Shown piece after piece: positions 50,829 through 58,454 of a DNA stretch of 64,000 nucleotides; positions within the stretch are counted from its first letter, which is position 1, and each line of letters opens with the position of its first letter. Source of the stretch: Bradyrhizobium sp. 195 (GTDB taxonomy: Bacteria > Pseudomonadota > Alphaproteobacteria > Rhizobiales > Xanthobacteraceae); assembly GCF_023101665.1 (NCBI RefSeq), contig NZ_CP082161.1, positions 4,092,001 to 4,156,000 on the forward strand, in the 5' to 3' direction. The translations under genes were made by a program, and so were the position numbers. The notes beneath the pieces are model-generated. The model saw nothing but the letters and a program-made list of their open reading frames with translations, had not been told where the DNA came from and searched no databases.

Positions 50829-51496
50829 TGACTGGCGCTATGATGAAGCGCCGCGTCGCCATCCTGATCTCCGGCCGCGGCTCCAACATGGCCGCGCTGA
50901 TCAAGGCCGCAACCGCAGCCGATTTCCCGGCCGAGATCTCGCTCGTCATCTCGAACAAGGCCGATGCGCTCGGCCTGGAGCGGGCCAAAGCGAGCGGCGT
51001 CAACACGCTGGTGATCGAGAGCAAGCCGTTCGGCAAGGACCGCGCCGGCTTCGAAAAGGTGCTGCAGGCGGCGCTCGACCAGCACGGTATCGAGCTGATT
51101 TGTCTGGGCGGCTTCATGCGCCTGTTCACGGCCGAGTTCACAAAAGCCTGGTACGGGCGGATGCTCAACATCCATCCCTCGCTGCTGCCGTCCTTCCCCG
51201 GCCTCGACCCGCACGGCCAAGCCCTGCGCGCCGGCGTCAAACTGTCCGGCGCGACGGTACACTTCGTGATCCCCGAGACTGACGCCGGTCCAATCGTGAT
51301 GCAGGGCGCGGTTCCCGTCAGCGATCACGACACGGGCGATACGCTGTCCGAGCGCATCCTCGAGGTCGAGCATCGCATCTATCCCGAAGCGCTGCGGCTG
51401 CTCGCGACGGGCAAGGTCCGGATCGAGGGTGACGTCTGCAAGACGGCGGGCAGCTCTGCGTCGGAGAATTTTCTGGTCGCGCCGCTGGTGGGCTGA
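50828..51496 (+). CDS. purN: Phosphoribosylglycinamide formyltransferase
   Basis: A 222-residue enzyme using 10-formyltetrahydrofolate to formylate GAR. Motifs: VAILISGRGSNMAALI for phosphate binding, GGFMRLF, and the active-site Asn and His in LNIHPSLLPSFPG with the downstream Asp in VIPETDAGPI. The start may be the second or third Met (MMKRRVAIL). Translationally coupled to purM. A palindromic element follows the stop by nine bases. Confidence 0.96.
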   Translation: MTGAMMKRRVAILISGRGSNMAALIKAATAADFPAEISLVISNKADALGLERAKASGVNTLVIESKPFGKDRAGFEKVLQAALDQHGIELICLGGFMRLFTAEFTKAWYGRMLNIHPSLLPSFPGLDPHGQALRAGVKLSGATVHFVIPETDAGPIVMQGAVPVSDHDTGDTLSERILEVEHRIYPEALRLLATGKVRIEGDVCKTAGSSASENFLVAPLVG

Positions 51497-51505
51497 AGCC
51501 TCCCC

Positions 51506-51589
51506 GTCATTGCGAGGAGCTCTTGCGACGAAGCAATCCAGAATCGTTCCGCGGAGAGATTCTGGATTGCTCGCTTCGCTCGCAATGAC
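51506..51589. repeat. 84-bp palindromic element, family A copy 3
   Basis: GTCATTGCGAGGAGCTCTTGC at the left, CTCGCAATGAC at the right, inner arms GAAGCAATCCAGAATC and GATTCTGGATTGC. Long shoulder on the left, as in copy 1. Sits just after purN and could act as its mRNA 3' end. Confidence 0.9.
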
Positions 51590-51659
51590 GGAATATGTCG
51601 CCGACGCGCGCCGTCCAACGACCCTCCGCGCAACAGGCGAGCCCTCGTTTCACTGCCCC

Positions 51660-51687
51660 AAATAAAATCCCCCGGCAGAGCCGGGGG
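51660..51687 (-). terminator. cspA terminator
   Basis: CCCCCGGC (51669-51676), loop AGA, GCCGGGGG (51680-51687); on the minus strand followed by ATTTTATTT, a classic intrinsic terminator about 40 bases after the gene. Confidence 0.85.
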
Positions 51688-52302: not shown

Positions 52303-53460
52303 ATGCGCTGCACCTCGCAGCCCTCCGAAACACGGCAGACGATCGGGCTCGACCGCGTCTGTAGGGCCGTGGCAGCGATCGGCATGGCGTTTGCGATCGT
52401 CGCGACGATGTCGGCCGCATCGCCAGTCTTCGCGCAAAGCCCGACGCCCACGCCGATCCCGACGCCCACGCCGTCACCGACCCCAGTCCCGTCGCCGACG
52501 TCGACCAACTACGACCAGTCGACCGGCAGCAGCGCGCTCAATCTCGGCTCCAATTTCCTGGAGCGGCTCGGCAACCAGGCATCCGGCGGCGTCAACCGGG
52601 CGTTCCGGACCAATCCCGGCGGCGGCGGGGCGTCGGCGAGCACAGAAGATCCGCGTAACCGCACCTGGTTCGAGGGCTACGGCATCTCGGTCCGCACCGA
52701 CGCGCAAGGTGACTTCGTCGGCGACAGGCGCAAGACGGTTGGCGGCGTTGCCGGCTTTGGCGCGCGGGTGGCCCCTGGCGTCAATCTCGGCTTCTCCGTC
52801 GACCAGAGCCACACCGACGTCGACGTGCCGCTGGCGCTGCAGTCGGCAACGCTCGACCTGACGCAAATCGGCTTCAACGGCTCGGTCGACAAGGGCCCGT
52901 GGACCTGGGCCTTCGCGGTGGTGCACGGTTTCGGCAAGGTCCGTTCCAGCCGCGACACCGGCCTTGGCCTTGCGAGCGCGAGCTATCGCGCCGCGGTCGA
53001 CGGCGCGCTGACCGAGATCAGCTATTACTGGACCAAGGACCAGATGCGCATCGTGCCCAAGGGTGCGCTGGAATATGTGCGGGCCACCAGCGCGGCGTTC
53101 CAGGAGGCCGGCGGCCTCGAACCGCTCAATGTCGGCTCGACCGCGCTCTCACGCGCGCGCGTGATGATCGGGGCCGAGATCGGCCGTTACTTCGTCATCG
53201 ACCAGAAGATCCTGGATCTGTCCGCTTACGGCAAGTTCGTCGACAATTTCCACCAGGACCTTGGCTCGATCCAGGTCAGCCTGGGACCTCAGAGCATCGT
53301 CGTTCCCGGCATCGGCGAGAGCCGCTACGGCGCGGATGCCGGCGCCTCGGCTTCGCTGAGCCTGACCGGTGTGGCGCGGCTCTACGTCAATTACGACGGC
53401 AAGTTCCGCAACGAGCTGACGTCGCACCAGGGCACGGTCGGCTTCGAGTACCGGTGGTGA
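52303..53460 (+). CDS. Autotransporter-type outer membrane beta-barrel protein with minimal passenger
   Basis: From ATG 52303 a 385-residue protein: signal peptide ending SPVFAQ (about residue 44), a Pro-Thr/Ser repeat linker (PTPTPIPTPTPSPTPVPSPT), about 50 residues with NLGSNFLERLGNQ, and a C-terminal autotransporter beta-domain ending in the aromatic residue Trp (GFEYRW). There is no recognisable passenger domain, so it would act as a porin-like barrel or display only the linker. ATGs at 52243 and upstream alternatives are in frame; none has a good ribosome binding site. Confidence 0.82.
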   Translation: MRCTSQPSETRQTIGLDRVCRAVAAIGMAFAIVATMSAASPVFAQSPTPTPIPTPTPSPTPVPSPTSTNYDQSTGSSALNLGSNFLERLGNQASGGVNRAFRTNPGGGGASASTEDPRNRTWFEGYGISVRTDAQGDFVGDRRKTVGGVAGFGARVAPGVNLGFSVDQSHTDVDVPLALQSATLDLTQIGFNGSVDKGPWTWAFAVVHGFGKVRSSRDTGLGLASASYRAAVDGALTEISYYWTKDQMRIVPKGALEYVRATSAAFQEAGGLEPLNVGSTALSRARVMIGAEIGRYFVIDQKILDLSAYGKFVDNFHQDLGSIQVSLGPQSIVVPGIGESRYGADAGASASLSLTGVARLYVNYDGKFRNELTSHQGTVGFEYRW

Positions 53461-53468
53461 GCTGAAGC

Positions 53469-54479
53469 TTACGCCGGCGTCGCCGCGACATATCCCGTCA
53501 ATCCAAACCCCTCGCGCGCGGCGGTCATCATCGGCACCAGCGCGTTCGGATGGATGAACTCGTCGCGGAAGCAGGGATAGGACTTGGGATCGAAGATCTT
53601 CTTCAGCCAGTCGACCACGATCTTGTGGCGCTCGGAGGTTCGGAATTCCTTGTGATAGGTGAGCCAGAGATCGGCATGGTGGCTGACGCCGAGATCGACG
53701 GCAACGAGAGGCGCGCCGAGCGCGATCGAGACCGTCGGCAGGAAGCCGATGCCGGCACCGCGCTCGACGGCATAGAGCACGCCGACCGAGGAATTGGTCT
53801 TGATCCCGACGATGCCCTCGAGCGACTTCAGCCCGAGCACGCGGGCGTAGGCGCCGTCGTCGACCTGCGGCGCGCTCTGCTTGATGATGCGGTGGTTGTT
53901 CAGCTCGGCGAGGGTCGTCGGCACACCGTAGAGGTTTTCGTACTCCTTGGAGACGAAGGGATAGATGTGCAGGCGGCCGAGCTTGGCGACGATCAGATCG
54001 GGATTGGTCGGCGGCTCGAGCTGGATTGCGATGTCCGATTCAAGCCGCGCGACGTCAGCTTGCTCCATCGCGCAGCGCAAGTCGACGGTGATCCTGCGGT
54101 AGGTCTTCTGGAAGTCGATCAGTCGCGGCAGGATCCAGAAATTGCCCGGGCCTTCCGTCACCGCGACGCGCACGGTCCCCGAGGTGTCGTTCGACGATCG
54201 CGAGGCGCGGCGGAAGACGTTGAAGGCGTGACGCTCCATATGCGCGACGTCGGCGATCATCGCGGTGCCTTCGTCGCTGAGCGTGAGCCCGCTCTGATCG
54301 CGCAGGAACAGCTTGCAGCCGATGCTCTCTTCGAGCCGATCGATCCGGCGCATCAGCGTGGTGGCGGTGAGCCCGAGCTCCTCGGCGGCATTGCGAAAAC
54401 TTTTAAATTTTGCGCAAGCTAAAAACAATTTCAAATCGTCCCAGGACGCGCCCAGGGCTTCTTCACGGTGCTGCATCAT
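53469..54479 (-). CDS. LysR-family transcriptional regulator
   Basis: From ATG 54479 a 336-residue regulator with the LysR winged helix (about 12-70; LKLFLACAKFKSFRNAAEELGLTATTLMRRIDRLEESIGCKLF) and a periplasmic-binding-type effector domain. An ATG at 54509 is also possible. It is divergent from a set of acyltransferase-like genes, the classical arrangement for LysR control of its neighbour. Effector unknown. Confidence 0.9.
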   Translation of the reverse strand: MMQHREEALGASWDDLKLFLACAKFKSFRNAAEELGLTATTLMRRIDRLEESIGCKLFLRDQSGLTLSDEGTAMIADVAHMERHAFNVFRRASRSSNDTSGTVRVAVTEGPGNFWILPRLIDFQKTYRRITVDLRCAMEQADVARLESDIAIQLEPPTNPDLIVAKLGRLHIYPFVSKEYENLYGVPTTLAELNNHRIIKQSAPQVDDGAYARVLGLKSLEGIVGIKTNSSVGVLYAVERGAGIGFLPTVSIALGAPLVAVDLGVSHHADLWLTYHKEFRTSERHKIVVDWLKKIFDPKSYPCFRDEFIHPNALVPMMTAAREGFGLTGYVAATPA

Positions 54480-54580
54480 CGCAGCACCCCGGTGCAATAA
54501 CTGCTGCATACTCCTGATCTCCAGCCGCTAAGCTCATTGGCATAGCGAGGCACGAAAGCCTTGAACGATAGAGGCGAGAT

Positions 54581-55198
54581 ATGGGTATGGAAAGGGGCTC
54601 GTTTGCCGCAAGGCATGATTTCGATGCCTTGCCGCTGAGCCCGGATGTCGATGTCCATTGCGCGCAATTTTCCGAAATTGCCGCACTTGCGCAGATGGCG
54701 CACCGGCTGGTGCCGGGCGTGCGGATCGGGACAGCCGACCTTGCGCGATACTTCACGTTCGATCCCCAGAGCATCCTGACGTTCAGCCGGAAGGGCCGTC
54801 TCGTCGGCGGCATGGCCTTCCTGTTTCTCAATGACCGCGGGCACGATGCTCTGCTGCTCGACGAGATCTGTCTCACCTCGCCCGAGACGCACTATCTCGC
54901 TTCCGCAAAGGAAGACGTCGCCGCCATCTACATCTGGGCGATCGCGGCGACGGGGCGCGGTATCGCCGGTCTCGGCAAGGCTGCGGCGCATCTGCGACAG
55001 CTAAGGTTTCGCAACGCGGATTGCTATGCGCAGCCGTCAACGGTGGCCGGACGCGACATCATGAAGGCCACCGGCTTTGCGCCGGTCCCGAGCTTCCAGC
55101 CCGATCTCTGGTGCTACGAGCGGCCCTGGCATCGGCAGCCGATGCGCATGCCTGGCGCGATCATCCAAGCAAGGAGTTTTGCAGATGCACGGTACTAG
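54581..55198 (+). CDS. GNAT-like acyltransferase, first gene of a LysR-linked module
   Basis: A 205-residue protein of unassigned family. The C-terminal half has the order of a GNAT fold: DALLLDEICLT strand, an acetyl-CoA-loop-like GRGIAGLGKAAAHLRQLRF, and the final ADCYAQPSTVAGRDIMKATGFAPV segment. The N-terminal part does not resemble known enzymes. It overlaps the next gene by 14 bases, so expression is coupled. The assignment to GNAT is by pattern only; function unknown. Confidence 0.75.
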   Translation: MGMERGSFAARHDFDALPLSPDVDVHCAQFSEIAALAQMAHRLVPGVRIGTADLARYFTFDPQSILTFSRKGRLVGGMAFLFLNDRGHDALLLDEICLTSPETHYLASAKEDVAAIYIWAIAATGRGIAGLGKAAAHLRQLRFRNADCYAQPSTVAGRDIMKATGFAPVPSFQPDLWCYERPWHRQPMRMPGAIIQARSFADARY

Positions 55199-55805
55199 GA
55201 TTCCTGTCGCCAAGCCCTGTTCCCGCGACATCACCATCCGCCTCGCGCGCGATCCCAGCGATCTCATGCTGGTCACGGCCATCCGCTCCGCGGTCTATCT
55301 CGCCGAACAGGATTGTCCGTTCGAGGAGGAGTTCGACGGCAACGACATGGTCGCCGCACACTTCATCGGCTTCGTCGGCAACGAGCCTGCGGGCTGCCTG
55401 CGGGTGCGCTTCTTCGGCGATTTCGCCAAGGTGGAGCGGCTCGCGGTGCGTCACCAATACCGGCGCTCGCGCGTCTCGTTCAAGCTGGTGCAGGCCAGCG
55501 TCGACTACGTGAAGCGCAAGGGCTTTCGCAAGATCTACGGTCAGGCGCAGGACAGGCTGGTTGATTTCTGGGCCCATTTCGGCGCCAAGCCGCTCGGTCA
55601 CAATCGCAAGATCACCTTCTCGGATTTTTCCTACACGGAAATGCTGCTGGAGATCGAGCCGGGCCCGGACGCCATCACGCTCGACAGCGATCCCTATGTG
55701 ATCATCCGTCCCGAGGGCGATTGGGACCGGCCGGGCGTGCTCGACGCCTCGGCGGGGCGGGCGGTGTCCTCACCGCTGCGGGACCTCGCGCTCGCCGACC
55801 GCTGA
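55185..55805 (+). CDS. GNAT-family N-acetyltransferase
   Basis: A 206-residue protein whose centre follows the GNAT pattern: AIRSAVYLAEQDCPFEEEFDGNDMVAAHFIGF, CLRVRFFGDFAKVERLAVRHQYRRSRVSFKLVQ and KIYGQAQDRLVDFWAHFGAKPLG. In the cofactor loop the usual R-x-x-G-x-G/A reads RRSRVS, so the glycines are not conserved. AAGGAG precedes ATG 55185. Second gene of the LysR-linked set; substrate unknown. Confidence 0.82.
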   Translation: MHGTRIPVAKPCSRDITIRLARDPSDLMLVTAIRSAVYLAEQDCPFEEEFDGNDMVAAHFIGFVGNEPAGCLRVRFFGDFAKVERLAVRHQYRRSRVSFKLVQASVDYVKRKGFRKIYGQAQDRLVDFWAHFGAKPLGHNRKITFSDFSYTEMLLEIEPGPDAITLDSDPYVIIRPEGDWDRPGVLDASAGRAVSSPLRDLALADR

Positions 55806-55830
55806 AATTGGTGCAGCTCTGCGCAACACG

Positions 55831-56394
55831 ATGCTGGCTTCTATCCACGATGATCCGCCGATCCTGGTCTGCGCGGATCTTCAGGTCGAGTACCTGACCC
55901 CCGGGCGCCGCCACGTCATCCTAGACGGCGACGCCACCACGGCGCGTTGCCTGGAACTGCTGACGCTGTGGCGCGGCAATCTGTGGCCGGTGATGCATCT
56001 GAAGCGCATCGCGCAGGCCGCCTGGTTCAATCCGGCATCCAGGCTGACCGATTGGATCGCGCAAACCAAGCCGCGGCCGGGAGAGATGACGTTCGAGCAC
56101 CCGCTGCCGTCCGCCTACAGCTCGTCGCGGTTTGTGGACTACATGTCTAATATCCGCGCCAGACGCTGCATTCTGATCGGTTTTTCCCTGGACGAGACCA
56201 TTCTGGCCACTGCCGTGGACGGGTTTCACCGCAGCCATCGCTACCAGGTGGTCGCTGATGCCGTGGCTTGCCGGCAGCCAGGTACGAGCGATGCCGCCGC
56301 CTACAAGCATGCGGTAGTGAATGTCATCGGGAACTTTGCTACAATCCAGTCCAGCGCCGAACTGATCAGAACCAGCGGCGCCGTTGCGGTGTAG
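55831..56394 (+). CDS. Isochorismatase-fold protein lacking catalytic Cys and Lys
   Basis: A 187-residue protein with the cysteine-hydrolase fold: ILVCADLQVEYL with Asp16 in place, HPLPSAYSSSRF corresponding to the K-x-x-x-S-A-F segment and RCILIGFSLDETILATAVDG corresponding to G-x-x-T-E-x-C-V-x-x-T-A. At the catalytic Lys there is His90 and at the nucleophilic Cys there is Thr123. It is therefore probably not an active hydrolase of the usual type and may bind a ligand or partner. It follows the GNAT gene by 25 bases. Confidence 0.8.
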   Translation: MLASIHDDPPILVCADLQVEYLTPGRRHVILDGDATTARCLELLTLWRGNLWPVMHLKRIAQAAWFNPASRLTDWIAQTKPRPGEMTFEHPLPSAYSSSRFVDYMSNIRARRCILIGFSLDETILATAVDGFHRSHRYQVVADAVACRQPGTSDAAAYKHAVVNVIGNFATIQSSAELIRTSGAVAV

Positions 56395-56400
56395 GCGGCC

Positions 56401-56595
56401 GTGACCGGCGGACGGGGTGAGAGATTGTCACGGGGAGACGAGCTCAAGGAGCTGGCGAGCGATCTGTCGCATGCCACCGAGACGGCGCGCAGGCTGGGTC
56501 TGCCAACGACGGTCTATCTGCTCTCGATAGCGTTGGTGGAGGTGAGGGAAGCCGCTGCCGGTGCCGATGACGGGCATGACGACGACGCGGCGTGA
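56401..56595 (+). CDS. Small hypothetical protein at the end of the LysR-linked module
   Basis: A 64-residue protein from GTG 56401, six bases after the preceding stop. The centre is helical (ELKELASDLSHATETARRLG, then TTVYLLSIALVEVREA) and the end is acidic. No ribosome binding site is obvious and a TTG seven codons in is also possible. It resembles small conserved proteins of the group, but I do not recognise a family. Confidence 0.55.
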   Translation: MTGGRGERLSRGDELKELASDLSHATETARRLGLPTTVYLLSIALVEVREAAAGADDGHDDDAA

Positions 56596-56760: not shown

Positions 56761-58143
56761 ATGTCCATGCTGCCCAATTCGCAAGAGGCCCGGGATGTGG
56801 CCTATCAGCTCCATCCCTATACCAACGCGCGCACGCATCAGCAGGCCGGTCCGCTGGTGATCGAGCGCGGTGATGGTCCTTATGTCTTCGATGCGTCGGG
56901 CAAGCGCTATTTCGAGGCGATGGCGGGCCTGTGGAGCGTCGGGCTCGGTTTCAACGAGAAGCGGCTGGTCGAGGCCGCGCACAAGCAGATGCTGGCGCTG
57001 CCGTTCTATCACACCTTCTCCGCCAAATCGCACGGGCCCTCGATCGACCTTGCCGAGAAGCTGGTGGCGCTCGCGCCTGTGCCAATGAGCAAGGTGTTCT
57101 TCACCAATTCCGGCTCGGAAGCCAACGACACCGTGTTGAAGCTGATCGCCTATCGCTCCAACGCGCTCGGCCAGCCACAGCGCAAGAAGGTGATCAGCCG
57201 GATGCGCGCCTATCATGGCGTCACCATTGCCTCGGCCAGTCTCACGGGCCTGCCGAACAACCATCGCTCGTTCGATCTGCCGCTGCCGAACATCCTGCAC
57301 ACGGGCTCGCCGCATTTCTACAAGGACGGCGCCCCCGGCGAGAGCGAGGAGGCGTTCGCGACGCGCCGGGCGGAGGAGCTCGACGCCCTGATCCAGAGGG
57401 AAGGGCCCGATACGATCGCGGCGTTCTTCGGCGAGCCGGTGATGGGCGCGGGCGGCGTCATCGTGCCGCCGGCGACCTATTGGGACAAGATCCAGAAGGT
57501 CCTGAACAAGTACGACATCCTCTTCGTCGCGGACGAGGTGATCTGCGGCTTCGGCCGCACCGGCAAGATGTTCGGTTGCGAGACCTATGGCATCAAGCCC
57601 GACGTGCTCGTGGTCTCCAAGCAGATCACCTCGAGCTATTTCCCATTCTCGGCGATCATCATGAACGACCGCATGTTCGAGCCGATCGCTGACGAGAGCA
57701 ACAAGATCGGCGTGCTCGGCCACGGCTTCACCGCGGGCGGCCATCCGGTCGGCTCGGCGATTGCGCTGGAAAACCTCAAGATCATCGAAGAGCGCGGCCT
57801 GGTCGCGCATGCCGCCGAGCTCGGCGGCTACATGCAGGGCCGCTTGCGCGAGCTCACCAGCCATCCGCTGGTCGGCGAGGTTCGCGGCGTCGGCATGATC
57901 GCGGCGATCGAGCTCGTGCTCGACAAGGGCCGCAAGACCGCAGCCGCGACGCCCGGTGCGGTCGGCGGCATCGCCAGCCGCATGCTCCAGGAGCGCGGCG
58001 TGATCTCGCGCAACATGCTGGACGCCATCGCCATCTGCCCGCCGCTGATCGTCACCAAGGCCCAGATCGACGATCTGGTCGCCGCGATCGCCGGTGTGCT
58101 GGAGGATATGAAGGCGGAAGTGGCCAAGCTGACGCCGGCTTGA
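56761..58143 (+). CDS. Class III aminotransferase (omega-amino-acid/amine:pyruvate type)
   Basis: A 460-residue PLP enzyme. Signatures: TNSGSEAND (115-123), RAYHGVT (149-155), the cofactor Asp258 in FVADEVICGFGRTG and the Schiff-base Lys287 in VVSKQITSSYFP, with GHGFTAGGHPVG completing the phosphate site. The order matches omega-transaminases acting on beta-alanine, putrescine-type amines or 4-aminobutyrate; substrate choice cannot be decided here. It stands alone, 165 bases after the small gene and before a palindromic element. Confidence 0.92.
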   Translation: MSMLPNSQEARDVAYQLHPYTNARTHQQAGPLVIERGDGPYVFDASGKRYFEAMAGLWSVGLGFNEKRLVEAAHKQMLALPFYHTFSAKSHGPSIDLAEKLVALAPVPMSKVFFTNSGSEANDTVLKLIAYRSNALGQPQRKKVISRMRAYHGVTIASASLTGLPNNHRSFDLPLPNILHTGSPHFYKDGAPGESEEAFATRRAEELDALIQREGPDTIAAFFGEPVMGAGGVIVPPATYWDKIQKVLNKYDILFVADEVICGFGRTGKMFGCETYGIKPDVLVVSKQITSSYFPFSAIIMNDRMFEPIADESNKIGVLGHGFTAGGHPVGSAIALENLKIIEERGLVAHAAELGGYMQGRLRELTSHPLVGEVRGVGMIAAIELVLDKGRKTAAATPGAVGGIASRMLQERGVISRNMLDAIAICPPLIVTKAQIDDLVAAIAGVLEDMKAEVAKLTPA

Positions 58144-58155
58144 GGCTCTCTCGTC

Positions 58156-58240
58156 GTCATTGCGAGCGTGGCGAAGCAATCCAGACTGCCTCCGCGGAAA
58201 GGCTCTGGATTGCTTCGTCGCAAGAGCTCCTCGCAATGAC
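58156..58240. repeat. 85-bp palindromic element, family A copy 4
   Basis: GTCATTGCGAGCGTGGCGAAG at the left and CGTCGCAAGAGCTCCTCGCAATGAC at the right, inner arms CAATCCAGA and TCTGGATTG. Long shoulder on the right, as in copy 2. Lies 13 bases after the aminotransferase stop. Confidence 0.9.
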
Positions 58241-58366
58241 GATGTGGGAGCAGCGAGCTCCAATCCATCACCGTCACCCCCGCGCAACGGCGAAGCGGTT
58301 GTCGCTGGAGGTGCTCGCCTCTTCGGCGAGCCTCGAAGGGCAACGGCCCGGCTGCCGCAGCGGGGC

Positions 58367-58428
58367 GTTCATCCTTCGAGGCTCCGCGCACGGTGCTCTG
58401 CACCGCGCGCCTCGCACCTCAGGATGAC
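58367..58428. repeat. Palindromic element, family C
   Basis: GTTCATCCTTCGAGGC at the left is matched by GCCTCGCACCTCAGGATGAC at the right, with a GC-rich inner stem (CGCGCACGGTG with CACCGCGCG). Between the aminotransferase and rnd. A further CCTCGAAGGG just upstream may be part of it. Confidence 0.7.
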
Positions 58429-58454
58429 GACCCGGCGCTCCGCGTTGGCTGAGC

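Follow-up and report, generated by a model that had tools for sequence, protein, structure and literature searches.

In the stretch of DNA analyzed here (64,000 nucleotides, positions 4,092,001 to 4,156,000 of Bradyrhizobium sp. 195 contig NZ_CP082161.1; hereafter, the window), a gene encoding a LysR-type regulator (LysR) faces four tightly packed genes, predicted to encode two GNAT proteins (GNAT1 and GNAT2), an isochorismatase-fold protein (ISO), and a short protein (SMALL). Comparison of these sequences with their relatives establishes that they form a conserved unit, that the two GNAT proteins correspond to a tandem enzyme, that residues expected in ISO and GNAT2 are altered, and that the proteins are nonetheless constrained. 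The best reading, offered tentatively and at a probability of about 0.4, is that of a LysR-controlled acyl-transfer module that makes or senses a small molecule. Neither the module nor its function was described in any title or abstract opening found in the open-access literature.

The genes of the module are kept together within Bradyrhizobium. ISO of the window's type (at least 57% identity) was detected in 117 of 195 Bradyrhizobium genomes, being intact in 114 and broken in three, while GNAT2 of the window's type (at least 79% identity) was detected in the identical 117 genomes. In 18 further genomes, GNAT2 corresponds to a domain of 46-51% identity contained within a longer frame (the fused form, as opposed to the split form of the window), with an ISO-like gene lying no more than 600 bases away in all 18. 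At an E-value threshold of 1e-10, none of the 195 genomes contained both the split and the fused types. The order LysR, GNAT1, GNAT2, ISO was constant in the window-type loci read, the exceptions being L042, where the available sequence begins inside GNAT2, and the three loci with a broken ISO. Longer regions of this type place the module between a cold-shock gene and an RNase D gene, wherever the region reaches these. Taken across genomes, such patterns establish that LysR, the tandem GNAT, ISO, and SMALL are inherited together. Three of the genomes carrying the window's type also contain a second type of locus (L053, L054, and L055), in which a LysR of the module's family faces ISO, a SMALL relative is found behind ISO, and no GNAT is found in 10 kb. 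Separately, GNAT2 is found in two pieces in 2 of the 117 genomes (G105 and G073); in the former (G105:C1:4632983-4633595), these appear as two overlapping frames, likely the result of a frameshift or an assembly error.

Beyond the split Bradyrhizobium form, GNAT1 relatives were sought at four taxonomic levels, and were detected in 23 of the 198 genomes searched from the family, in 40 of 297 from the order, in 3 of 289 in a class sample, and in 15 of 398 in a phylum sample. The window's own genome is among the positives at every level, three samples also hold other members of its genus, and, as only the best 8 to 15 candidates per genome were scored, absences are soft. When 40 regions fetched from among the matches of the family and order searches were annotated using profiles, LysR was present in 40, GNAT2 in 39, and ISO in 30 (one weakly); of the ten regions lacking ISO, L135 and L161 end near a contig end. 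A GNAT2 scan of named genomes was also performed, with the best 80 of 431 relatives being kept. A set of 110 distinct loci (L122-L241, with ten repeats removed) was chosen for holding a GNAT relative and hence contains a GNAT by selection; 109 of these have the GNAT pair, 96 have a LysR facing it, and 84 have an ISO next to it. The initial annotation had proposed a conserved unit of altered enzyme folds, with lack of conservation of the gene set counting against it; rather, these genes remain together across many other genomes. LysR is absent from 14 of the 110 loci, of which twelve comprise the biosynthetic group considered below and two (L177 and L218) are cut at a contig end before LysR would be reached. 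In six further regions retrieved in the class and phylum searches (one of which, L264, repeats L196), GNAT1 and GNAT2 were found in six, LysR in five, and ISO in one. Related copies occur in Methylobacterium, Microvirga, Pseudolabrys, and others. The module can be described as a self-contained, probably LysR-controlled unit of Alphaproteobacteria, mostly Hyphomicrobiales. Moreover, protein distances of LysR, GNAT1, GNAT2, and ISO correlate (r of 0.70 to 0.87), with 0 of 500 permutations giving values as high. These values were obtained with 70 thinned loci out of 121, with kinship left in, as was also the case in the shuffle and operator controls. The correlations fit common descent of the set and do not show physical interaction. 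In one locus, L170, the LysR match is partial, GNAT1 is divided in two, and there is no ISO; this copy of the module seems to be decaying.

Whereas the initial annotation had listed two GNAT-like proteins, and both indeed belong to this superfamily, their treatment as separate proteins requires revision, since, among distinct loci not of the split Bradyrhizobium form, 89 of 109 carry GNAT1 and GNAT2 within a single open frame. By this comparison, they are the two halves of one tandem GNAT. In the tree, the 25 split rows all fall, together with a single fused one, in one group of 26 (support 98). Separate GNAT genes were, however, also seen in four loci from other orders (L262 and L265-L267); either the fused or the split form may have come first. 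GNAT1, already noted as being of no clear family, gave no Pfam match up to an E-value of 1 and no significant relative in the PDB by sequence (best E-value 0.27), yet presents the GNAT fold. Naming a substrate from these fold matches was rejected, with SxtA, CurA, GphF, and serotonin N-acetyltransferase being tied. GNAT2 matches the Pfam Acetyltransf_1 profile (36.3 bits; cut-off 20.7), and a profile built from 13 GNAT2 sequences matches the ElaA-type structures 1q2y, 5jph, and 5z6n at E-values of 4e-10 to 2e-11.

The cofactor loop of GNAT proteins usually reads Q/R-x-x-G-x-G/A. The corresponding loop of the window's GNAT2 reads RRSRVS, as such lacking the glycines, just as had been claimed. 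This lack is a trait of the family, where the loop is mainly R-x-[ST]-R-x-[SA]; of 157 rows, 13 (each of the fused form) have Gly followed by Gly or Ala, and 3 have a single loop Gly. At the same time, GNAT2 presents the lowest median ratio of nonsynonymous to synonymous substitution (dN/dS) of the module, namely, 0.062 (17 comparisons). The glycine-poor loop is, as such, a conserved family trait in a strongly constrained protein.

ISO matches the Pfam Isochorismatase profile (PF00857) at 59 bits (cut-off 27), and its predicted model (predicted local distance difference test score of 93) presents the corresponding fold. Foldseek returned 8cib and 4h17 as the nearest solved structures, with several others being tied with these two in another comparison. 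The window's ISO contains Asp16, His90, and Thr123, as previously reported, and HMMER alignment with 4h17 and 8cib matches His90 to the Lys, and Thr123 to the Ser, of these two structures. Residues were counted in 120 distinct ISO sequences, of which 35 belong to the window's type and 85 do not, with matches of under 90 bits (L048, L141, L208, and L234) being excluded. Asp16, the catalytic Asp of cysteine hydrolases, is present in 116 of the 120. At position 90, that of the catalytic Lys, Arg is found in 75 sequences, His in 40, Lys in one, and other residues in four, while Cys is found at position 123, that of the nucleophile, in none. The initial annotation had raised the prospect of relatives keeping both Cys and Lys; none was encountered in this set. 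Cys is, instead, found one position further along, at position 124, in 77 of the 120, all among the 85 others. In the window's type, position 124 is Ile or Val in 35 of 35 sequences (Ile in the window itself), and His90 and Thr123 are found together in all 35 distinct sequences and in all 65 rows from the genus, with the latter including repeats (L031 is the window, and L056-L058 are G005, G091, and G062). His90 was also seen in five ISO sequences outside the window's type, four of which (L122, L123, L139, and L140) read Thr or Ala at position 123. L122, L123, and L139 cluster with the window's type in the tree (support 99), so the state of the window's ISO is inherited and predates the genus. 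The median dN/dS of ISO is 0.16, a value that includes matching pieces of the three broken copies.

Previous description of ISO as a dead enzyme was not borne out. Not only do most relatives contain Cys at position 124, but also PhzD has Gly and CrcA has Ser at the nucleophile position, with CrcA keeping the Lys, binding Crc, and relieving repression (PMC10213629). Since CrcA, with Ser in place of Cys, works by binding Crc, loss of Cys alone does not mean that a protein is dead. ISO is better described as repurposed. The pocket of CrcA (acidic residue or Asn, Lys, Ser) is not that of the window's ISO (Asp, His, Thr).

SMALL contains no Pfam domain at cut-off, the only match, to NAD_binding_11, falling far short (13.5 bits vs. 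30). Using an iterated SMALL profile, a counterpart was found behind ISO in 72 of 128 loci, namely, 24 of 34 split-type Bradyrhizobium loci and 48 of 94 others, as compared to 0 of 518 control stretches. In relatives, the open frame often starts before the ISO match ends. Conservation extends over part of the SMALL length, with a median dN/dS of 0.30 (16 loci). This 64-residue sequence is a real protein.

The possibility that ISO and SMALL are not enzymes but rather a regulatory pair, with a metabolite-binding pseudoenzyme contacting LysR or a GNAT much as CrcA does Crc, was considered. Such a role is conceivable, if doubtful. The Ser found at the expected Cys position in both 8cib and 4h17, the binding of Crc by CrcA, the L053-L055 loci, where ISO and SMALL relatives stand beside a LysR of the module's family with the GNATs absent, and the lack of a recognized domain in SMALL are all consistent with this idea. 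On the other hand, retention of Asp16 in almost all ISO sequences and of Arg or His at position 90 in 115 of the 120 looks like the keeping of a pocket, and CrcA retains its Lys. LysR is not mentioned in connection with CrcA in the available part of PMC10213629.

Alternatively, ISO may be an enzyme of changed chemistry that employs no nucleophilic Cys, as is the case for true isochorismatases such as PhzD with its Gly, or that relies on the Cys at position 124 in most relatives. This, too, is rather unlikely. The Cys at position 124 has been lost throughout the window's clade, where His also takes the place of the Arg seen in most relatives, and no isochorismate pathway gene was found among the window neighbors read, with the genome itself not being searched for one.

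In terms of regulation, LysR matches the Pfam HTH_1 (61.4 bits) and LysR_substrate (88.7 bits) profiles, as do LysR-type regulators, and presents a median dN/dS of 0.075 (17 loci). Among the matches listed, no curated NCBIfam model was reached at cut-off, the best being GcvA (105.6 bits vs. 288). LysR is probably a dedicated regulator of the module. When 25 Bradyrhizobium loci were aligned together with the window, a conserved block, GCTGC-N6-GCAGCACCCCG-N-TGCAA...TGCTGCATAC, was seen at the LysR start (at least 85% of rows). At a similar place, several Methylobacterium loci contain TGTTCC-N6-GGAACA-CCCC, while fused Bradyrhizobium loci contain TGTGCA-N6-TGAACA-CCCC. Such paired change of the arms between clades argues for a binding site, i.e., a candidate operator, rather than for coding constraint. 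With the pattern fixed, at least five of the six arm positions pair in 60 of the 129 distinct LysR loci, comprising 30 of 35 of the genus type and 30 of 94 others, a level that plain shuffles, run on a set in which some genomes appear twice, reach in 0.1%. As the dyad lies inside the first annotated LysR codons, the true LysR start may be further in. The exact operator sequence is found once in the 9.1 Mb genome, at the site listed in Table 1. In L124 and L128, two LysR genes of one subfamily were noted on the same strand, with the second lying some 0.6-0.7 kb past the LysR of the module.

The twelve loci mentioned above contain a fused tandem GNAT without LysR and ISO, and ten thinned rows from this group form one clade (Shimodaira-Hasegawa-like approximate likelihood ratio test support of 100). 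Genes recurring nearby encode PAS_5-type (11 of the 12 loci), MFS (8), TubC_N-condensation (7), AMP-binding (6), and EmrA-like (5) proteins, with the Pfam and NCBIfam names deriving from L196, and two of the genes also having been checked in L211. In L196, a phosphopantetheinyl transferase and EmrB are additionally encoded. A small conserved carrier-like open reading frame (ORF) was found in 5 of the 12 loci, in 4 of which a regular expression located GGHSL; the term carrier-like reflects this motif and not a profile search. These neighbors offer the only functional hint from context, suggesting that the tandem GNAT may draw on acyl groups bound to a carrier or to coenzyme A (CoA) to build a small molecule for export. 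Among GNAT relatives, LuxI and FeeM are without the glycine loop and accept acyl-carrier donors.

According to the acyl-transfer reading favored here, LysR very probably binds the dyad at its own start and so controls both the divergent operon and itself, thereby serving as a local switch. GNAT2 would be the acyl-transferring domain, with GNAT1, a GNAT domain no longer bearing the usual sequence signature, having a structural or substrate-binding role. The two may jointly acylate a small amine metabolite, the donor perhaps not being acetyl-CoA, after which ISO and SMALL would bind or further convert the acylated product by means other than Cys-Lys hydrolase chemistry. Either this product or its precursor could be the ligand of LysR.

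Several observations weigh against this reading. The ISO gene is broken in 3 of the 117 Bradyrhizobium genomes of the window's type (L048, L049, and L050, corresponding to G034, G180, and G077), with LysR, GNAT1, GNAT2, and SMALL all being present, meaning that ISO is not essential and can be the first component to go. Likewise, LysR and the GNAT pair occur without ISO in 10 fused and 3 split loci of the 110, some of the ISO-less loci (e.g., L135, L161, and L217) stopping near a contig end. In 69 of the 129 LysR loci, no dyad was found in the form searched, and synonymous diversity does not by itself prove the operator, being 0.212 over its 7 codons, as compared to 0.256 over 232 codons, and 0.165, as compared to 0.257, over all third positions of the first 18 LysR codons. 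With up to two mismatches allowed, 38 operator-like matches were found in the genome, as opposed to 8 for the reversed pattern, such that LysR may have further targets; 37 of the 38 contain one or two mismatches, one of these 37 being the same site on the other strand. The carrier-protein cluster was seen in one clade only, and no such cluster was seen among the window neighbors read, with distant genome sites not being searched. Finally, membership of GNAT2 in the FeeM (N-acyl amino acid synthase) family was rejected, as the score of 14.6 bits falls below the cut-off of 27.

A more specific form of the acyl-transfer reading would make the module a signaling circuit of Alphaproteobacteria free of acyl-homoserine lactones, in which the tandem GNAT uses a carrier- or CoA-bound acyl group to produce an N-acyl signal, ISO and SMALL bind or trim this signal, and LysR acts as its receptor, mainly targeting this operon. 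As formulated, this is quite improbable.

It is also unlikely that the module detoxifies or tags a single compound, with GNAT2 acetylating a toxic amine or amino-acid analog that at the same time is the LysR ligand. While the relation of GNAT2 to ElaA and other small stand-alone acetyltransferases, the single exact operator copy, fitting a narrow response, and the patchy presence of the module in Bradyrhizobium could be so explained, a tandem arrangement with a first GNAT invisible to profiles, an altered cofactor loop, and recruitment to a carrier-protein cluster would not be typical of a resistance enzyme. Lastly, that the window's ISO is simply an ordinary cysteine hydrolase that has broken down locally, as the three disrupted Bradyrhizobium copies might suggest, is most improbable, and local decay is ruled out for the family as a whole by the residue counts and dN/dS, given the presence of His90 and Thr123 in every genus row, the value of 0.16, and the lack of Cys at position 123 in any relative examined.

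Re-reading of the window confirmed all gene coordinates (Table 1), as well as the 14-base overlap of GNAT1 and GNAT2, the 25-base gap after GNAT2, and the 6-base gap after ISO.

Table 1. Components of the module and candidate operator, in window positions.
Feature	Position	Strand	Description
LysR	53469-54509	-	346 residues; divergent from the GNAT genes
GNAT1	54581-55198	+	205 residues; N-terminal half of tandem GNAT
GNAT2	55185-55805	+	206 residues from ATG at 55185; C-terminal half of tandem GNAT, ElaA-like
ISO, isochorismatase-fold protein	55831-56394	+	187 residues; D16, H90, T123
SMALL	56401-56595	+	64 residues, GTG start; directly after ISO
Candidate LysR operator, TGCTGC-N6-GCAGCA-CCCC	54469-54490	+	Within first codons of annotated LysR ORF

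For GNAT2, the mechanical ORF list has an upstream TTG in place of the ATG given in the table. On the LysR side, a gene encoding an autotransporter beta-domain protein (52303-53460; 107.6 bits), with a proline-threonine run near the protein start, converges on LysR and stops 8 bases short. ORF translations flanking the module on either side, at window positions 51429-51665 and about 58140-58430, carry similar wording (SLRGALATKQSR... and WIASSQELLAMT), probably reflecting a short dispersed repeat, i.e., a repetitive element of the Bradyrhizobium sp. 195 genome. The class-III aminotransferase gene found after SMALL (56761-58143) was considered as an extra partner and rejected, as it adjoins the module only in part of Bradyrhizobium and was seen in none of 57 loci of other than the split Bradyrhizobium form. 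The regions scanned in these loci spanned about 5 to 13 kb, and the database used did return LysR, GNAT, and ISO matches. In L048, L051, and L066, this gene lies about 4 kb more distant, as if several kb had been inserted between it and SMALL.

With 117 split and 18 fused copies in 195 genomes, about two-thirds of the Bradyrhizobium genomes examined carry the unit. It offers a natural series of changes to the catalytic set of an enzyme fold that has kept its place in the operon, together with a tandem enzyme encoded by either a single gene or two, and a regulator with co-changing operator arms. Were the product a signal, this would add a new form of exchange among bacteria that are common in soil and in association with plants.

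Among known systems, mycothiol synthase MshD and Eis are tandem GNAT proteins. Like them, the tandem GNAT of the module contains two GNAT domains per chain, but shares with them no sequence family that was found. GNAT2 resembles ElaA-type proteins, with the profile match spanning the EQ.....E.D stretch and the acetyl-CoA loop region, yet differs from these in its conserved C-terminal extension (DPY..RPEG.W..PG.L), in mostly having Arg for the loop glycine, and in having a second GNAT domain in front. ISO shares its fold with the isochorismatases PhzD, VibB, and VabB, which serve small-molecule pathways, although identity over the fold is 15 to 21% and ISO lacks the Lys. CrcA (PA1677; PDB 8cib) and PP1826 (PDB 4h17), the nearest solved relatives and likewise of the isochorismatase fold, retain the catalytic Lys, whereas ISO has His, or Arg in most relatives. 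Finally, LysR is like other divergent LysR-type regulators in its HTH_1 and LysR_substrate domains, in the divergent gene order, and in the candidate operator dyad at its start, but unlike them is not named by the NCBIfam models listed and is tied to this particular set of genes.

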